Positions 22,512 through 40,533 of a stretch of DNA of 64,000 nt are shown here, piece by piece (within the stretch, counting starts at the first letter, position 1; each line of letters begins with the position of its first letter). The notes under the pieces are model-generated. The model searched no databases. It was not told where the DNA came from and saw only the letters and a list, made by a program, of their open reading frames with translations. The stretch covers positions 248,001 through 312,000 of the forward strand of contig NZ_PNFD01000002.1 in assembly GCF_003254645.1 (NCBI RefSeq), given 5' to 3'. This stretch comes from Microbacterium suaedae (lineage in GTDB: Bacteria; Actinomycetota; Actinomycetes; Actinomycetales; Microbacteriaceae). The position numbers were made by a program, and so were the translations under genes.

Positions 22512-23903
22512 TCAGACGATCCGTCCGGCGAGCGAGCGGCGCGGGACGAGGTAGACGACCGCCGTGAGGATGCCGAGCACCGCATAGGCGCCGATGAAAC
22601 CGTAGAACGCCGGCACGTACCCTCCCGTGGCCTGCTGCGAGAGGTTCAGCACCTGCGGGACGAAGAAGCCGCCGTACGCGCCGAGCGCCGAGATGATCCC
22701 GAGGGCGGCGGCGCCCTTGCGCTGCGCGCCGACCGCGTGTTCCTCACCCGCCGTCGCAGCACCGCGGGCGGCGAAGATCGACGGGATCATGCGATACGTC
22801 GCGCCGTTCGCGATGCCCGTCGCGCTGAACAGGACGAGGAAGCAGGCGAGGAAGACCCAGAAGCTCGCGAGAGGAAGGGTCAGCACGACCGCGAGCGTCG
22901 CTGCGATCATCCCGCCGAAGGAGACCACCGTCATGCGCGCGCCGCCGAAGCGGTCGGCGAGGCGCCCGCCGTAGGGGCGAGTGAGGGATCCGACGAGCGC
23001 GCCGAGGAACGCGAGCGACAGTCCCGCGCCGAAAACCTGGAAGGTCGAGAACTCGGGGAACTGGTCGGCGATGAGCTTCGGGAACACGCTCGCGAATCCG
23101 ATAAAGGATCCGAAGGTGCCGATGTAGAGGAGCGCCATGATCCAGAGGTGGGGCTCCTTCAGGGCGGCCGCCGCGCCGGCGAAGTCGCTCTTGGCGGTGG
23201 AGAGATTGTCCATGAACCGCCACGCGCCCCAGATGGCGACGAGGATGAACGGCACCCAGATGAAGCCGGCGAGCTGGATGTTGAGCGTGCCGACGGCGCC
23301 GAGGGTGACGGCGATCGGAACGATCAGCTGTGCGATCGCCGCGCCGATGTTGCCGCCGGCCGCGTTGAGCCCGAGCGCCCAGCCCTTCTCGCGCTGCGGG
23401 AAGAAGTAGGTGATGTTCGCCATCGAGCTGGCGAAGTTGCCGCCGCCGAGCCCGCCGAGGGCCGCGACGAGCAGCAGGACGGGGTAGGGAGTCTCGGGAT
23501 TCTGCACGACGACGCCGAGGAGGATCGCCGGGATCAGCAGAAGCGCCGCGGAGATGATCGTCCAGTTGCGCCCGCCGAATCGCGCCACCATGAACGTGTA
23601 GGGGAAGCGCAGCGTCGCACCGACGAGACTCGCGACCGAGATGAGCCAGAACTGCTGCGTCGACGTGAGCGCGAAGCCCGCGGCGGGGAGCATCACGACG
23701 ACGATGCTCCACAGCTGCCACACCACGAAGCCGAGGAACTCGGCGAACACCGACCAGCCGAGGTTCCGCTTGGCGATCGTGCGGCCCTCCGCCTCCCACT
23801 GGGCCGGATCCTCGGCGTTCCAGCCGTCGATCCAGCGTCCGGGACGGACCGCAAGACCGGAGGCCTCGAGCGGCGTGCGCGTCGTGCTCACGGACGATGC
23901 CAT
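22512..23903 (-). CDS. narK: Nitrate/nitrite transporter, MFS NarK/NasA family
   Basis: 463 residues with about 12 membrane segments and a 45-residue cytosolic N-terminus. Nitrate-porter hallmarks are present: the substrate-binding Arg in GATLRFPYTF and the Gly-rich signature segments GGLGGGNFASSMANITYFF and ALGLNAAGGNIGAAIAQ. First gene of the narK-nasB-nasC operon, so nitrate import and reduction are made together. GAGC/AAGGAGC-like ribosome site on the - strand before ATG 23903. Promoter elements at 23943-24008. Confidence 0.92.
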   Translation of the reverse strand: MASSVSTTRTPLEASGLAVRPGRWIDGWNAEDPAQWEAEGRTIAKRNLGWSVFAEFLGFVVWQLWSIVVVMLPAAGFALTSTQQFWLISVASLVGATLRFPYTFMVARFGGRNWTIISAALLLIPAILLGVVVQNPETPYPVLLLVAALGGLGGGNFASSMANITYFFPQREKGWALGLNAAGGNIGAAIAQLIVPIAVTLGAVGTLNIQLAGFIWVPFILVAIWGAWRFMDNLSTAKSDFAGAAAALKEPHLWIMALLYIGTFGSFIGFASVFPKLIADQFPEFSTFQVFGAGLSLAFLGALVGSLTRPYGGRLADRFGGARMTVVSFGGMIAATLAVVLTLPLASFWVFLACFLVLFSATGIANGATYRMIPSIFAARGAATAGEEHAVGAQRKGAAALGIISALGAYGGFFVPQVLNLSQQATGGYVPAFYGFIGAYAVLGILTAVVYLVPRRSLAGRIV

Positions 23904-23942: not shown

Positions 23943-23964
23943 ACGCTAGGGATCCGGTGTTTCG
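23943..23964 (-). promoter_or_regulatory. narK promoter: CGAAACACCG-N6-TAGCGT
   Basis: Read on the - strand: CGAAACACCG (23964-23955), six bases, then TAGCGT (23948-23943), a -10 element. The same two elements with the same spacing occur before nirB at 40459-40438, and nowhere else that I noticed. Confidence 0.65.
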
Positions 23965-23981
23965 CACGGCGCTCCCGTCTC

Positions 23982-24008
23982 GTGTCGCGCGCGTCACCTT
24001 TCGATCAC
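23982..24008 (-). promoter_or_regulatory. GlnR-like direct repeats upstream of narK
   Basis: On the - strand GTGAT-N6-GTGAC-N6-GACAC with 11-bp spacing, matching the GTnAC-N6-GAAAC pattern of actinobacterial GlnR boxes with one mismatch in the second unit. It is centred about 50-60 bases upstream of the predicted start, right for an activator. Confidence 0.45.
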
Positions 24009-24037: not shown

Positions 24038-24053
24038 GAAACACCGAGGAAAC
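24038..24053 (+). promoter_or_regulatory. GAAAC-N6-GAAAC tandem between narK and trmD
   Basis: Two exact GAAAC units 11 bp apart on the + strand, in the spacer between divergent narK and trmD. Could be an extra GlnR-type half-site pair, facing trmD-mog. Confidence 0.35.
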
Positions 24054-34374: not shown

Positions 34375-35058
34375 TCATTCCAACAGAGTGAGCCCCTCGC
34401 GGTAGCGCTCCGTGATGATCGCGGCGACGCGCGGATCCGTCCCGACGGGCTCGGTCGCGACGTCGGCGCCCGATGAGGCGATGAGATCCGCGAAGTGGCC
34501 GGGCGCGAGCACGTAGCTCGCCACGATGACCCGCTCGGCGCCCGCCTCGCGCGCCTCGGCGACGGCGCCCGCCACCTTCGGCGTCGCGCCATATGCGTAG
34601 CCGACCGTGACGGGCGCGGTCACACGCTCGGCGAGGGCGCCGCGCACCTCTCGGACGCGCTCGGCCGATTCAGGACGCGACGATCCCGCCGCCGCGAGGA
34701 CGACGTGATCGCCCGGGCGCACACCGATCTCGCGCACGCGGTCGCCGAGCACGTCGGCGAGCGCAGGATGCGGGCCGAGCGTGCCCGTCGCGACGACGTC
34801 GTCGCGCGATGCGGCGGCGCGACCGATGTCGACCTGCGTGTGGTAGCCAGGCGAGAGCAGCAGCGGCACGATGACGCCCGCTCCATCGAGCCCCGCCACT
34901 ACCTCGTCGACCTGTGGCTGTTGGACGTCGACGTAGGTCTCACGCAGGGGAGCATCGCCGAGAAGCTCGGCGGCGCGCCGGGCGAGGAGAGAGATGACGG
35001 CCCGCCCCTCGGGGGAGTCGGTGCCGTGTGAGCAGCAGACGAGAGCGGGTGTCGGCAT
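34375..35058 (-). CDS. sirB: Sirohydrochlorin chelatase-like protein (SirB/CbiX family)
   Basis: 227 residues. LVCCSHGTDSPEGR near the N-terminus and PLLLSPGYHTQVDI carry the His metal ligands of the CbiX/SirB fold; the second half, LAAAGSSRPESAERV and APGHFADLI, repeats the fold weakly. Beside the fused methyltransferase/dehydrogenase and nirBD, ferrochelation of sirohydrochlorin to siroheme is the natural role. One-base overlap with the HemD-like gene before it. Confidence 0.85.
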   Translation of the reverse strand: MPTPALVCCSHGTDSPEGRAVISLLARRAAELLGDAPLRETYVDVQQPQVDEVVAGLDGAGVIVPLLLSPGYHTQVDIGRAAASRDDVVATGTLGPHPALADVLGDRVREIGVRPGDHVVLAAAGSSRPESAERVREVRGALAERVTAPVTVGYAYGATPKVAGAVAEAREAGAERVIVASYVLAPGHFADLIASSGADVATEPVGTDPRVAAIITERYREGLTLLE

Positions 35059-36194
35059 CAGATGTCCTTCACCGTGAGGCGGTATCCCCGCTTGACGACG
35101 GTCGTGATGAGATCGGGGAAGCCGAGCGCCTCGCGCAGACGCGCGACGGCCATCTCGACGGCATGGGTGCTCTGGCTCGACCGCGGCAGCGAATCCTGCA
35201 GATCGCGCCGCGGGATCACGGCGCCGCCCGCATCGAACAGTGCGCCGAGGACGGCCGTGCCGGTGGGGGAGAGCGGGAGGAAGACGCCCTCCAGCACGGC
35301 GCCGGCGCTGCGCATCTCCAGCCGCCCGCGCGGGGTGTCGAGCCCGGGAGCCTCGCCGCCGCCGAAGTGCGCCACGACGCCGCGCACGAGCGATCCGAGT
35401 CGGCCGCGCTCGGCGACGAGGGCGGGGATGCCGACGTCGTGCAGCGGCTGAACTGTGATGGGGCCGACGGCGGCCATCAGCAGTCGGTCGCGATCCGCGC
35501 GCTCGCGGATCTCGTGGAGGACGCCTGCGCGCTGCGCCTCGGCGAGCCATTCGCTCGCGCCCGGCGCGGAGGTGAACAGGACGGCGTCCACCTCGCCCGC
35601 CGCCGTCGCGAGCACGGACTGCCGCACGACGAGCGGATCCGCGGGCGGGCCCCAGCGGTACACCGTGAGGCTCACGACGTCGGCGCCGCGCTCACGGAAG
35701 AGCTCGTCGAGCCCGTCGGAGCCGGAACCGTGATGCTGCACCGCGATCCGCTTGTCTGCCACGCCCTCCGCGAGCAGGTACTCGCCGAGCTCGCGGGCCG
35801 TCTCGGACTCGGCGACCCAGTCGACGTCGAAGCCCGCCTGCTGAACCGCGCCGCGGGCCTTGGGTCCGCGCGCCACGATCTGCGCCCCGGAGAACGCGTG
35901 ACCGAGCTCGTCGGCGAGGCCGGCCTCGTGGGCCGCCTCCATCCATCCGCGGAATCCGACGCCCGTCGTGGCGACGACGACGTCGGGCGGGGAGGCGATG
36001 AGTTCGCGCGTGGCGTGGAGGAGAGCCTCGTCGTCGATGTGGGGGATGATCGTCAGCGCGGGGGCCTGACGTACCGCGGCGCCGTGACGTTCGAGCGCGG
36101 CCGTCAGCTCGCCGGCGCGCCGATCGACGGCGATGACGACCGTGCACCCGTCGAGCGCCGAGGACAATCGGGGGCGGGGCGCGGCGTCGGTCAT
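35058..36194 (-). CDS. Uroporphyrinogen-III synthase-like protein with C-terminal winged-helix DNA-binding domain
   Basis: 378 residues. Residues about 15-265 match the HemD two-lobe fold (VVIAVDRRAGELTAALERHG, DVVVATTGVGFRGWMEAA, DAVLFTSAPGASEWL). Residues about 290-378 are an OmpR-type winged helix (LSPTGTAVLGALFDAGG, RRDLQDSLP, MAVARLREALG, VVKRGYRLTV). This fusion is known in actinobacteria (Rv0260c type) beside nitrite reductase and CbiX genes. It may be a tetrapyrrole-sensing regulator rather than an enzyme. The true hemD would be elsewhere with hemBCL. Overlaps the next gene by four bases. Confidence 0.85.
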   Translation of the reverse strand: MTDAAPRPRLSSALDGCTVVIAVDRRAGELTAALERHGAAVRQAPALTIIPHIDDEALLHATRELIASPPDVVVATTGVGFRGWMEAAHEAGLADELGHAFSGAQIVARGPKARGAVQQAGFDVDWVAESETARELGEYLLAEGVADKRIAVQHHGSGSDGLDELFRERGADVVSLTVYRWGPPADPLVVRQSVLATAAGEVDAVLFTSAPGASEWLAEAQRAGVLHEIRERADRDRLLMAAVGPITVQPLHDVGIPALVAERGRLGSLVRGVVAHFGGGEAPGLDTPRGRLEMRSAGAVLEGVFLPLSPTGTAVLGALFDAGGAVIPRRDLQDSLPRSSQSTHAVEMAVARLREALGFPDLITTVVKRGYRLTVKDI

Positions 36195-37432
36195 CCGGCG
36201 GCTCCCTCGTGCGCGGCAGTCGCCGTGTGCGCGGGGAGAAGCAGATCGGGTCGAGCGACCTCGCCGATGACGATGACGGCCGGGTTGCGCACGCCCGCGT
36301 GCCGGGCGTCGGCGACGGCGTGTGCGAGGGTCGTGCGGGTCGTGCGCTGGTGCTCGGTGTGCCCGCTCTCGACGAATGCCACGGGGCGATCGGCCGGGAC
36401 GCCCGCCGCGAGGGCCTCGTGCGCGATCGCGCCGAATGCCTTCACACCCATGAGCAGGACGGTCGTGACCGTCGGATCCTCGAGGGAAGCGAGCGTCGCG
36501 TCCGAGACGCCCGACTGGCCGTTGATGATGTGCACGCTCGAGGCGACTCCGCGGTGCGTGACGGGGATCCCCGCCGCCTGCGGAACCGAGACGGAGCTCG
36601 AGACGCCGGGGACGACCTCGACGGGGATGCCAGCGTCGAGACAGGCCGAGACCTCCTCGCCGCCGCGCCCGTAGACGAACGGATCCCCGCCCTTGAGGCG
36701 CACGACGCGCTTGCCGGCGCGCGCGTGGTCGACGAGCATCGCGTTGATCTCGTCCTGGGGAACCGGATGGTGACCGGGGGCCTTGCCGACGTGCACGACC
36801 TCGACATCGGGATCGAGCTCGTCGAGCACTCCGGTGGCGCCGAGGCGATCTGCGACGACGACGTCGGCCTCGGCGAGGAGGCGCCGAGAGCGCAGCGTCA
36901 GGAGGTCGACGGGTCCCGGACCGCCGCCGACGAGGGCGACGGATCCCGCTGCCGATTCACGCACGCGGCGCAGGGGCGCGCGCCCCGACTCGAGCATCTC
37001 GCGGACCGAGGAGTTCACGCGCGCGGTGCGGCGCGGATCCACCCCCGAGTCGCTCGTGACGCCGACGAGCACGTCACCGGCGCGGGTCTGCGACGTCATC
37101 CGGGCGGATCCGTGCGCGCCGTCGGACGAGTTCACGCAGAACGTGCGCCGCGCCTCGCACCAGGCGACGACCTGGGCATCGACCTCGGGGTCGCCCGTGG
37201 CCGTGTGGACGAGCCACGCGCCGTCCACGTCGCCCTCGGACACGGGGCGAGCGTCCCACGGGACATCGTGGTCGGCGACGAGCTGCGCCACTTCGGGCGA
37301 CAGCTCGGGGGCGACGAGACGCACATCGGCGCGTTCGTCGAGGAAGCGGCGCAGGCGGCGCGCGGTCACGCTGCCGCCGCCGACGAGCACGACGAGGCGG
37401 CCGTCGAGGGATACTCCGAGCATCGCCGTCAT
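36191..37432 (-). CDS. cysG: Fused precorrin-2 dehydrogenase / uroporphyrin-III C-methyltransferase (CysG-like without chelatase certainty)
   Basis: 413 residues. N-terminal NAD domain VVLVGGGSVTARRLRRFL with VNSSDGAHGSARM (precorrin-2 dehydrogenase/Met8 type), then from residue about 155 the SUMT domain: VALVGGGPGPVDLLTLRSRRLL, VVADRL, RLKGGDPFVYGRGGEE, GIPVTHRG. Makes precorrin-2 and oxidises it to sirohydrochlorin; the nearby SirB-like protein can add iron. Start ATG 37432 lies one base from the nirD stop; a second Met at residue 4 is possible. Same domain order as E. coli CysG. Confidence 0.9.
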   Translation of the reverse strand: MTAMLGVSLDGRLVVLVGGGSVTARRLRRFLDERADVRLVAPELSPEVAQLVADHDVPWDARPVSEGDVDGAWLVHTATGDPEVDAQVVAWCEARRTFCVNSSDGAHGSARMTSQTRAGDVLVGVTSDSGVDPRRTARVNSSVREMLESGRAPLRRVRESAAGSVALVGGGPGPVDLLTLRSRRLLAEADVVVADRLGATGVLDELDPDVEVVHVGKAPGHHPVPQDEINAMLVDHARAGKRVVRLKGGDPFVYGRGGEEVSACLDAGIPVEVVPGVSSSVSVPQAAGIPVTHRGVASSVHIINGQSGVSDATLASLEDPTVTTVLLMGVKAFGAIAHEALAAGVPADRPVAFVESGHTEHQRTTRTTLAHAVADARHAGVRNPAVIVIGEVARPDLLLPAHTATAAHEGAAG

Positions 37433-37433
37433 G

Positions 37434-37823
37434 TCACGCCGCCTTCCACTTGATGAGCACCTGTCCGTCGTCCACCGCAACGGGGTGAACCGCGATGTGG
37501 CGCTCGTCCTTGCCCTGCGTCTCGACGACGGCACCCGTGCGCAGATCCCATGCCTGCTTGTGCAGGGGCGATGCGATCGTGGGCACCTCGGAGCCGTCGG
37601 TGAACGCCTTGGAGCCGACGATACCCCTCGAGAGCACGTGTGCCAGGCCGTACGGGTCATAGTTCGACACAGCGCGCACCGTGCCGTCGACCAGCCGGAA
37701 CAGCGCGATCTGAGTGTCGCCGATGAGGGCGGCGCGCCCCCGTTCGACCGTCAGATCGTCGAGCGCGCACACGCGCACCCACGTGGTCTGCGCGGTCGCC
37801 GCCGCGTCGCCGATCGTCGTCAT
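37434..37823 (-). CDS. nirD: Nitrite reductase [NAD(P)H] small subunit NirD
   Basis: 129 residues, Rieske-like beta fold: WVRVCALDDLTVERGRAALI, IALFRLVDG, VSNYDPYG and PLHKQAWDL. The Cys-His pairs of a true Rieske cluster are absent, as in NirD proteins. Partner of NirB. ATG 37823 overlaps the nirB stop by four bases. Confidence 0.92.
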   Translation of the reverse strand: MTTIGDAAATAQTTWVRVCALDDLTVERGRAALIGDTQIALFRLVDGTVRAVSNYDPYGLAHVLSRGIVGSKAFTDGSEVPTIASPLHKQAWDLRTGAVVETQGKDERHIAVHPVAVDDGQVLIKWKAA

Positions 37824-40399
37824 CGCCGCACCTCCAGCGTCGTACCCGCGATCATCACGGATCCGGATTCCTTCTCCTCGTCTGAGGCGGGCCGCACCTG
37901 ACCGCGCTCGAGCACATACGCGAGCGACGGATCCGGAGTATCGGGTGCGTTCACGAAGGAGTGGAAGCGCGAGAGCTTATCGGGATCCTTCAGCGTCGCC
38001 GCCCATTCGTCCTCGTACGTGCCGACGTGCTTGTCCATTGAACGGTCGAGGTCGTCTGCGATGCCGAGCGAGTCGTCGAAGATGACCTCGCGCAGCCCGT
38101 CGAGGCCGCCCTCGAGCTCTTCGACCCACGGCGCCGTGCGCTGCAGGCGATCGGCCGTGCGGATGTAGTACATGAAGAAGCGGTCGATCGCGCGGATCAG
38201 CCCGTCGTCGTCGAGTCCCTCGGCGAGCAGCTGCGCGTGGCGCGGGGTGAATCCGCCGTTGCCGCCGACGTACATGTTCCAGCCGTTCTCGGTTGCGATG
38301 ACGCCGACGTCCTTGCCGCGCGCCTCGGCGCACTCGCGCGCGCAGCCCGAGACGCCGAGCTTGAGCTTGTGAGGCGAGCGCAGACCGCGGTAGCGCAGCT
38401 CGAGGCGCACCGCCATGCCGACGGAGTCGAGCACGCCGTAGCGACACCACGTCGAACCCACGCACGACTTCACGGTGCGCAGCGACTTGCCGTACGCCTG
38501 CCCCGACTCGAAGCCCGCGTCGACGAGGCGCTTCCAGACGAGGGGGAGCTGTTCGAGGCGCGCGCCGAACATGTCGATGCGCTGGCCGCCCGTCAGCTTC
38601 GTGTAGAGACCGAACTCCTTCGCGACCTCGCCGATGACGATGAGTCCCTCGGGCGTCACCTCGCCGCCGGGCATGCGCGGAACGACCGAGTACGAGCCAT
38701 CCTTCTGCATGTTCGCCATGACGTGGTCGTTCGTGTCCTGCAGCGTCGCCGTCTCGCCCTCGAGGACGTGCTCGCCGACGAGACCCGAGAGGATGCTCGC
38801 GATCGTCGGCTTGCAGACATCGCAGCCGCGACCGCGGCCGAAGCGGTCGATGATCGCGCTGAACGTCGTGAGCCCCGACACCGAGATCGCGTCGAAGAGC
38901 TGTCGGCGAGACATGTCGAAGTGCTCGCACAGCGCGTCGCTGACGGCCTTGCCGAGAGATGCGAGCTCCTTGCCGACGATCTTCTTGACGGTCACGAAGC
39001 AGGATCCGCACGTGGCGCCGGCCTTCGTGCACGCTTTGACCTCGCCCGCGTCAGCGCAGCCGTCTTCGTGCACGGCGCCGCGGATCCGCCCCGCCGTCAC
39101 CGACGAGCACGAGCACACGATCGCCTCGTCGGGAAGATCGCCCGTAGGGGCCTCGACGCCGCCTTCGGGCATGAGGTATGCCGCGGGATCGGCGCCGAGG
39201 GGGCTGCCGACGAGCGGGCGGAGGGATCCGTAGGCTGACGCGTCGCCGACGAGGATGCCGCCGAGGAGGGTCGAAGCGTCGTCGCTCATCACGAGCTTCT
39301 TGTACACGCCGCCCACGGGGTCGGTGTAGACGACGTCGAGCGCGCCCGGCGAAGTGGCCATCGCGTCACCGAAGCTCGCGACGTCGACACCCGACAGCTT
39401 CAGCTTCGTCGACTCGTCGTAGCCGGGGAACGTGGCCTCGCCGCCGAGGAGTCGGTCGGCCGCGACCTCGGCCATCGTGTAGCCCGGAGCGACGAGACCA
39501 ACGCAGCGGCCGTCGAAATTCGCGACCTCGCCGATCGCGAAGATCGCGTCGTCGGAGGTGCGGCAGGCGTCGTCGATGAGGACGCCGCCGCGCGGCTCGC
39601 ATTCGAGCATCGCCTCGCGCGCCAGGCGGTCGTTGGGGCGCACGCCGACGGTGAAGACGACGACGTCCGCTTCCTCCCACGATCCGTCGCGGAACTCGAG
39701 ACCCGCGACCTGGCCCGTGCGATCGGCGTCGAGTCGCGTCGTGCGCGATTCGGTGCGCACGTCGATGCCGCGCTGCGAGATGAGGCGGCCAAGCACCTCG
39801 CCGCCCGCGCGGTCGATCTGCGCCGACATGAGGTGCGTGCCCGAGTGCACGACCGTGCAGTCGACGTCGAGCCCCTGCAGGGCGCCCGCCGCCTCGAGAC
39901 CCAGCAGGCCGCCGCCGACGACCTTGCCGACGAGCGGCCGGCCGAGCTGCGCGCGACGTGCCTCGACGAAGTCCGTGAGCGAGACGAGATCGTCGATCGT
40001 GCGGTAGACGAAGCATCCGGGCAGATCGGCGCCGTCGACGGCGGGGCGCGCCGCGTAGGAGCCGGTCGCGAGCACGAGGGTGTCGTAGGCGAACTCGGAT
40101 CGCGCGGCCGTGTGAACGGTCTTCGCCTTCCGATCGACGCGCACGACAGGGTCGCCCGTCACGAGCGCGACCCGCGGATCCTCGAGGTGGTGCCGCTCGA
40201 GCGTCAGCTCATCGGCCGTCGTGCCCGAGAAGAACGATGTGAGGCCGACGCGGTCGTAGGGGAGACGGCTCTCCTCTCCGATCAGTGTGATCTGCCACGG
40301 AGCGTCGCTCCGGGTGAGGAGGCTCTCGATGAATCGGTGGGCGACCATACCGGCGCCGACGACGACGATATGACCGGCGGTCTTGTTCGATGTGCTCAT
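37820..40399 (-). CDS. nirB: Nitrite reductase [NAD(P)H] large subunit NirB
   Basis: 859 residues. Reduces nitrite to ammonium with six electrons in the cytoplasm. FAD loop IVVVGAGMVAHRFIESLL, NAD loop GKVVGGGLLGLEAAGALQ, BFD [2Fe-2S] CSCSSVTAGRIRGAV with CTKAGATCGSC, a second cysteine pair region (GRGCDVCKPT), then the siroheme/4Fe-4S domain with SCVGSTWC and GCARECAEA. ATG 40399 chosen: AGGAG lies seven bases before it; the in-frame GTG at 40414 would swallow that site. First gene of nirB-nirD-cysG-hemD/HTH-sirB, all with tiny overlaps or gaps, so nitrite reductase is made with its siroheme. Confidence 0.95.
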   Translation of the reverse strand: MSTSNKTAGHIVVVGAGMVAHRFIESLLTRSDAPWQITLIGEESRLPYDRVGLTSFFSGTTADELTLERHHLEDPRVALVTGDPVVRVDRKAKTVHTAARSEFAYDTLVLATGSYAARPAVDGADLPGCFVYRTIDDLVSLTDFVEARRAQLGRPLVGKVVGGGLLGLEAAGALQGLDVDCTVVHSGTHLMSAQIDRAGGEVLGRLISQRGIDVRTESRTTRLDADRTGQVAGLEFRDGSWEEADVVVFTVGVRPNDRLAREAMLECEPRGGVLIDDACRTSDDAIFAIGEVANFDGRCVGLVAPGYTMAEVAADRLLGGEATFPGYDESTKLKLSGVDVASFGDAMATSPGALDVVYTDPVGGVYKKLVMSDDASTLLGGILVGDASAYGSLRPLVGSPLGADPAAYLMPEGGVEAPTGDLPDEAIVCSCSSVTAGRIRGAVHEDGCADAGEVKACTKAGATCGSCFVTVKKIVGKELASLGKAVSDALCEHFDMSRRQLFDAISVSGLTTFSAIIDRFGRGRGCDVCKPTIASILSGLVGEHVLEGETATLQDTNDHVMANMQKDGSYSVVPRMPGGEVTPEGLIVIGEVAKEFGLYTKLTGGQRIDMFGARLEQLPLVWKRLVDAGFESGQAYGKSLRTVKSCVGSTWCRYGVLDSVGMAVRLELRYRGLRSPHKLKLGVSGCARECAEARGKDVGVIATENGWNMYVGGNGGFTPRHAQLLAEGLDDDGLIRAIDRFFMYYIRTADRLQRTAPWVEELEGGLDGLREVIFDDSLGIADDLDRSMDKHVGTYEDEWAATLKDPDKLSRFHSFVNAPDTPDPSLAYVLERGQVRPASDEEKESGSVMIAGTTLEVRR

Positions 40400-40437
40400 T
40401 CGCAGCTCCTGCACGGGGTGTCACGACAGTGATCCCC

Positions 40438-40459
40438 ACGCTAAGAACGCGGTGTTTCG
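40438..40459 (-). promoter_or_regulatory. nirB promoter: CGAAACACCG-N6-TAGCGT
   Basis: On the - strand CGAAACACCG (40459-40450), six bases, TAGCGT (40443-40438). Identical elements and spacing precede narK. Confidence 0.65.
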
Positions 40460-40465
40460 CGGCGC

Positions 40466-40492
40466 ATCGCGATCGGGTTTCCCGAGAGCGAC
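40466..40492 (-). promoter_or_regulatory. GlnR-like repeats upstream of nirB
   Basis: On the - strand GTCGC-N6-GAAAC-N6-GCGAT, with the next GAAAC seven bases on. The first two units sit at exactly the same distance from the promoter core as GTGAC-N6-GACAC does before narK. Confidence 0.45.
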
Positions 40493-40533
40493 GAAACCCT
40501 CACAAGGCGCTGAGGGCCTTGTGAGGGTTTCGT
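40491..40533. terminator. 18-bp perfect stem-loop between map and nirB
   Basis: ACGAAACCCTCACAAGGC (40491-40508) and its exact complement (40516-40533) with a 7-base loop GCTGAGG. Placed 25 bases after the map stop on the - strand, so it should end map transcription before the nirB promoter. No T-run follows, and its edge touches the GlnR-like repeats. Confidence 0.75.

Follow-up and report, generated by a model that had tools for sequence, protein, structure and literature searches.

The promoters of narK and nirB in the analysed DNA are, with a probability that we put at about 0.88 on sequence grounds, composite promoters of the sigma70 type, addressed by both GlnR and NnaR: a predicted NnaR palindrome (full at nirB, a degenerate half at narK) is followed by the GlnR boxes a1 and b1, by an a2 box apparently lost at the -35 position, and by a b2 site 10 bp before the -10 element. 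We base this on the elements and on how they are spaced and conserved, on the fact that the genome encodes both regulators, and on the recurrence of the proximal element at other nitrogen genes. Both promoters lie in one window, the whole analysed stretch of 64,000 nucleotides, and their features are collected in Table 1.

Table 1. Coordinates of promoter elements and genes in the window
Feature	Position	Strand	Remark
narK -10 element TAGCGT	23943..23948	-	consensus TANCGT
narK proximal GlnR b2 site GAAAC (predicted)	23959..23963	-	about -27 to -23; 10 bp from -10
narK a2 slot GAGCG	23970..23974	-	degenerate; -35 position
narK GlnR b1 box GACAC (predicted)	23982..23986	-	
narK GlnR a1 box GTGAC (predicted)	23993..23997	-	
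narK degenerate NnaR half-site GTGAT (predicted)	24004..24008	-	N6 from a1; CTCAC partner absent
narK, nitrate/nitrite transporter	22512..23903	-	first gene of narK-FAD reductase-nitrate reductase operon
nirB -10 element TAGCGT	40438..40443	-	
nirB proximal GlnR b2 site GAAAC (predicted)	40454..40458	-	10 bp from -10
nirB a2 slot CGATG	40465..40469	-	degenerate; -35 position
nirB GlnR b1 box GAAAC (predicted)	40477..40481	-	
nirB GlnR a1 box GTCGC (predicted)	40488..40492	-	most relatives: GTTCG
nirB NnaR palindrome CTCACA-N15-TGTGAG (predicted)	40499..40525	-	N6 upstream of a1; motif from PMC6277429, PMC11162112
nirB, nitrite reductase large subunit	37820..40402	-	
nirD, nitrite reductase small subunit	37434..37823	-	
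uroporphyrinogen-III methyltransferase / siroheme synthase (cysG-like)	36191..37660	-	true start probably within frame
nnaR, HemD-like domain fused to OmpR-type DNA-binding domain	35058..36194	-	proposed co-activator, nirB operon

Read base by base, the minus strand has the layout GTGAT-N6-GTGAC-N6-GACAC-N18-GAAAC-N10-TAGCGT at narK and TGTGAG-N6-GTCGC-N6-GAAAC-N18-GAAAC-N10-TAGCGT at nirB (40504-40438); from a1 to the -10 element these are exactly the boxes and spacings that an earlier sequence-only reading had noted. The upstream half CTCAC (40525-40521), beyond the list of that reading, completes a palindrome CTCAC-N17-GTGAG at nirB, within the CTCAC-N16 to N18-GTGAG range of NnaR promoters; at narK, the full palindrome was not found, and the GTGAT half stands alone at its expected place. 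Both promoters place the NnaR element N6 from a1, and both carry an a-b box one mismatch away from the consensus GTnAC-N6-GAAAC (GTGAC-N6-GACAC at narK, GTCGC-N6-GAAAC at nirB). A canonical second box, a2-b2 in the 22-bp register, is present at neither promoter, the a2 slots reading CGATG (nirB) and GAGCG (narK). The composite reading has several points against it: a b1-b2 step of 23 bp and not 22, the missing a2, a weak upstream part at narK, and a nirB a1 box, GTCGC, that departs from GTnAC. The 22-bp register does not seem to be a strict requirement, since a2 is dispensable at the nas promoter of Amycolatopsis mediterranei (PMC10704036). Downstream of narK and on the same strand follow genes for an FAD/BFD reductase and a NasC-type nitrate reductase. 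Separately, a tandem GAAACACCGAGGAAAC lies at 24038-24053 on the plus strand, opposite to narK and directed toward trmD; it is absent from all 23 of the 23 other narK upstream regions checked.

The core CGAAACACCG-N6-TAGCGT, which the sequence-only reading had described as identical in the two promoters, is matched exactly at two places in the window, narK and nirB, and shuffled windows give a mean of 0.61 matches even with up to three mismatches allowed. The genome as a whole (3.35 Mb) contains no further exact copy, and the next best match there has two mismatches. This third match (L003/L247) reads GAAAC-N6-GAAAC-N10-TAGCGT and precedes an amidohydrolase related to cytosine deaminases, suggesting a GlnR-type promoter without NnaR. 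The genome-wide pattern search that had been proposed, run with a 66-bp pattern of 17 fixed bases including the upstream GTGA, returned narK and nirB as its two exact matches and, beyond these, only two matches with three mismatches (reversed control: 0); a larger regulon sharing the complete layout was not found in the genome. All genome-wide searches were pattern scans, and matrix scoring covered the window (about 128,000 positions).

Conservation of the spacing in relatives had been set as the test on which the claim could fail. We analysed 80 named nirB loci, nearly all from Microbacterium, and 58 of them retain the strict pattern upstream of nirB, with N18 in 49 loci, N17 in 9, and always N10 to the -10 element. 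The strict pattern was found in none of the 80 loci at any other spacer from 13 to 23 or any other -10 distance from 7 to 13, with other linkers or other a1-b1 gaps, or in shuffled sequences. It is also present in 11 of 27 narK regions, likewise with spacers of 17 or 18, and the a1-b1 gap of 6 and the NnaR-a1 linker of N6 are the sole values found in relatives. The genus alignment reads CTCACA-N15/16-TGTGAG-N6-GTTCG-N6-G(A/T)AAC-N17/18-GAAAC-N10-TANCGT for nirB and GTGA-N6-GTGAC-N6-GTAAC-N17/18-GAAAC-N10-TANCGT for narK, which is more variable, its 5' palindrome half being degenerate in many promoters of the genus. The layout noted from the window is therefore conserved, but its N18 is not universal: the spacer is 17 or 18 in the genus (narK and nirB of one genome sometimes differ) and 16 in other families. 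With the shared layout kept in relatives of both genes, the proposed co-regulation of narK and nirB is supported as far as sequence comparison reaches.

In 51 nirB promoters, conservation peaks at the boxes and at TANCGT and falls near background in the 18-base spacer; since the rows were picked by scoring part of the boxes, it is the columns outside this score that form the independent part of the result. The T, A and final T of TANCGT are invariant in these promoters, which is partly required by the selection. When a matrix trained on the 51 relatives' promoters, with the window genome left out, was run over the window, nirB ranked first (43.9 bits) and narK second (16.3 bits), more than 50 bits ahead of the third-ranked position (-38.4). 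Most of the narK signal comes from the proximal part; scored alone, its upstream part falls outside the top four window sites.

Two side observations concern the nirB loci of relatives. At the nirB start codon, 33 of 77 loci (L119, L124-L130, L133-L138 and others) carry a second conserved GlnR-type element, G(A/C)AAC-N17-G(C/A)AAC-N10-TANNGT, which in each of the 33 ends exactly 6 bp short of the ATG, as would suit a leaderless transcript, and is absent from nirB of the window. This element can also be read as an open frame, in which Ala is GCT in 26 of 26 cases and Lys is AAA in 28 of 28 (3-4% in nirB); this codon bias suggests that the DNA and not the peptide is constrained. Finally, a contig labelled Stenotrophomonas maltophilia (L162) carries a Microbacterium-type nirB with its promoter and is probably contamination.

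NnaR, an orphan regulator, controls the assimilation of nitrate and nitrite together with GlnR, and its published motif, CTCAC[A/C]-N16-[T/G]GTGAG, adjoins a GlnR box (PMC6277429, PMC11162112); nirB and narK need both proteins, and the palindrome adjoins the GlnR box at similar spacing (PMC6277429). Both regulators are encoded here. GlnR is assigned to an ORF (L087) with 8hih and 8hig as best PDB matches, and NnaR to the window gene at 35058-36194 (PRK07239, 398.6 bits). All 38 genomes of the genus that have NirB also have NnaR, versus 1 of the 21 that lack NirB (Fisher p 7.5e-15), this single exception being a fragmented draft. The resemblance to GlnR boxes seen by the sequence-only reading is supported, but that reading had missed NnaR, both as a palindrome upstream of nirB and as a gene in the window.

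GlnR might drive both promoters by itself, which we consider improbable; the CTCAC/GTGAG palindrome of nirB would then be part of a hairpin that terminates map, the gene upstream, and not an operator. The palindrome is indeed the centre of a perfect 18-bp stem (window 40491-40533, minus strand; -35.3 kcal/mol, z -7.3) about 25 bp past the map stop codon, and narK has no full palindrome. However, the hairpin lacks a T tract and no terminator was called after map; most relatives keep CTCACA/TGTGAG, at N6 from a1, but not the long stem; and the composite pattern also precedes narK, nirB and nasA across the class. Extended stems at the nirB palindrome were also seen in three relatives (L108, L113 and L176), and it is possible that a map terminator and an NnaR operator overlap at this hairpin.

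The sequence-only reading had considered a GAAAC in the spacer, so close to the -10 element, unusual for an activator site. This did not hold up: an exact genome scan for GNNAC-N6-GNAAC-N10-TANNNT gave four matches (reversed controls: none), one before an operon for OHCU decarboxylase, hydroxyisourate hydrolase and urate oxidase, the other three before two amidohydrolases related to cytosine/guanine-type deaminases and one cytidine-deaminase-fold protein. As a further observation, these four promoters, all of GlnR type and serving genes of purine and pyrimidine catabolism, lie at G000:C5:92500-109335 and G000:C6:267792, three of them 6-7 bp before the ATG, as for leaderless transcripts. Upstream of glnA we found a full a1-b1-a2-b2 set, GTAAC-N6-GAAAC-N6-GACAT-N6-GCAAT-N10-TAGTTT; the canonical four-box genome scan recovers glnA and is otherwise near control level. 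As b2 stands N10 from the -10 element at glnA, at the urate-oxidase operon and at the three deaminase-type genes as well, a GAAAC beside the -10 element appears to be a normal position for GlnR. With the -10 element at -12 to -7, b2 comes to lie at -27 to -23, and the a2 slot at -38 to -34. The same placement has parallels elsewhere: at amtB of Streptomyces coelicolor an a2 box is located at -35 (PMC5826061), which places b2 within the spacer, and the box bound by AfsR, an activator of the SARP family, has its centre at -29.5 (PMC10936776).

A different OmpR-type regulator with similar direct-repeat sites, MtrA or PhoP, might be the main binder, for example as a repressor. The genome encodes eight OmpR-type domains, MtrA- and PhoP-like proteins among them (names given by eye), and MtrA has almost the same motif as GlnR and is known to bind mycobacterial nirB (PMC6277429). 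Still, all four other exact matches to the proximal element precede nitrogen-scavenging genes, and NnaR tracks NirB, which together leave this alternative with a very small probability. The motifs overlap with that of GlnR (PMC6277429), too closely for sequence to separate the targets, and these proteins may compete for the same boxes.

Two further explanations were rejected. The elements of extracytoplasmic function (ECF) sigma factors can look alike, as in TGAAAC-N16-CGTC, and GAAAC ... CGT could accordingly be taken for an ECF-type -35/-10 pair. The spacing is wrong, however, GAAAC and CGTC being 13 apart in narK and not about 16; the conserved -10 element is TANCGT, and the upstream boxes are conserved as well, making this reading scarcely credible. 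Least probable of all is a recent duplication in place of shared control: despite the ten identical bases plus TAGCGT of the core, the likeness is limited to the boxes, with differing spacer bases, and these boxes are conserved in the orthologues that each promoter has in many species.

Returning to the GlnR-NnaR composite, we searched 395 genomes of the class for an NnaR palindrome next to a GlnR box, and 69 contained matches. Anchors before genes of the pathway (tblastn labels narK, nirB, nasA or nirD) have a linker of 6 to the GlnR box. Downstream of 45 of the 66 anchors, a G-box stands exactly 10 bp before TANNNT, with none at 6-9 or 11-14 bp; as the anchors were selected by the NnaR-GlnR pattern, this documents the fixed proximal distance and not the share of nitrate promoters without the upstream part. 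Between b1 and b2, 29 loci have a spacer of 16, 12 have 17 and 4 have 18; at spacer 16 the a2 slot is GNCAC or nearly so, and at 17-18 it is mostly lost. Tentatively, and with a good deal more doubt than belief, the promoter may consist of a rigid upstream block, NnaR-N6-a1-N6-b1, and a rigid downstream block, b2-N10-(-10), with a spacer between them whose length drifts from lineage to lineage (16, 17 or 18) and with a2 kept as GNCAC mainly at 16. If so, these promoters would work with three GlnR sites plus NnaR, where the GlnR-polymerase complex of known structure has four contiguous GlnR sites, and a rotation of two base pairs would be tolerated at the joint. Our search of mainly freely accessible literature found no description of this two-block layout with its 16-18 bp spacer and its link to a2 loss.

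Related patterns were seen at other genes. A transketolase-like gene (by eye) in two genus genomes (L185 and L188) has CTCAC-N18-GTGAG-N6-GTGAC-N6-GACAC upstream without a proximal GAAAC-N10-TANNNT; its regulator is perhaps MtrA. The composite NnaR-GlnR pattern also precedes a truncated-haemoglobin-like gene (by eye) in L193 and L197, matching the published mycobacterial trHbN target.

From the arrangement of narK and nirB we infer that GlnR and NnaR bind these boxes, in which direction they act and where transcription starts. Under nitrogen limitation, GlnR would occupy a1-b1 (about -61 to -46) and the proximal half-site b2, GAAAC (-27 to -23); on b2, with the a2 slot empty, it would replace the missing -35 element and hold RNA polymerase on TANCGT. 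NnaR, produced from the nirB operon, would bind the palindrome, the half nearest to a1 being one helical turn further upstream, assist GlnR and add a nitrate-related input. By assisting GlnR, it would switch on the nitrate importer/reductase and the nitrite reductase/siroheme operons together and, with nnaR located within the nirB operon, would provide positive feedback. Such a mechanism agrees with what is known of co-regulation by NnaR and GlnR, and with the a1-b1-b2 rule known from nas in Amycolatopsis.

The proposal amounts to a base-pair model for the joint switching of nitrate import, nitrate reduction and nitrite reduction in Microbacterium, and to an NnaR-GlnR plan common to the class, in which one contact point is fixed (GAAAC, 10 bp before the -10 element) and one joint slides; from this a simple prediction follows of which RNA polymerase contacts matter. 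For actinobacteria that have been little studied, it also offers a specific pattern with which to look for GlnR targets. A NirBD review naming NnaR and Microbacterium aside, we found no prior report of an NnaR-GlnR promoter in this genus in the mainly freely accessible literature.

OmpR-fold activators that bind 11-bp repeats in the -35/spacer region near the -10 element are known, PhoB at the pho box being an example. The afsS promoter, with its activator AfsR, resembles ours in the OmpR fold, the 11-bp repeats and their place within the promoter, but has another regulator and a 3' SARP repeat 8 bp from the -10 element, versus 10 bp for GAAAC here (PMC10936776). S. coelicolor amtB shares the a2 slot at -35 and the proximal b2 in the spacer, but comprises three full GlnR boxes, with no NnaR site described (PMC5826061). 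Also similar is the nas promoter of A. mediterranei, where a1-b1-b2 are essential and a2 is dispensable (Wang 2013, summarised in PMC10704036): according to that summary it has the same three GlnR sites, with b2 set apart from b1, but the b1-b2 spacer is 16 bp as compared to 18 here, and no NnaR palindrome is described there. Among the closest known systems are, further, the nirB and narK promoters that NnaR and GlnR control jointly in Mycobacterium smegmatis (Antczak 2018, PMC6277429) and M. abscessus (PMC11162112) and the co-regulation in S. coelicolor (Amin 2012, as cited in PMC6277429), with which ours share CTCAC-about N16-GTGAG beside a GlnR box at similar spacing, the pair narK and nirB, and nnaR linked to nirBD. 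Microbacterium differs in the degenerate half-palindrome at narK, in the b1-b2 spacer of 18 and in the N10 distance, here traced class-wide. The switch is old, widespread in actinobacteria and probably read by the known regulators GlnR and NnaR; in Microbacterium it has a lineage-specific spacer, and the type of system is not new.
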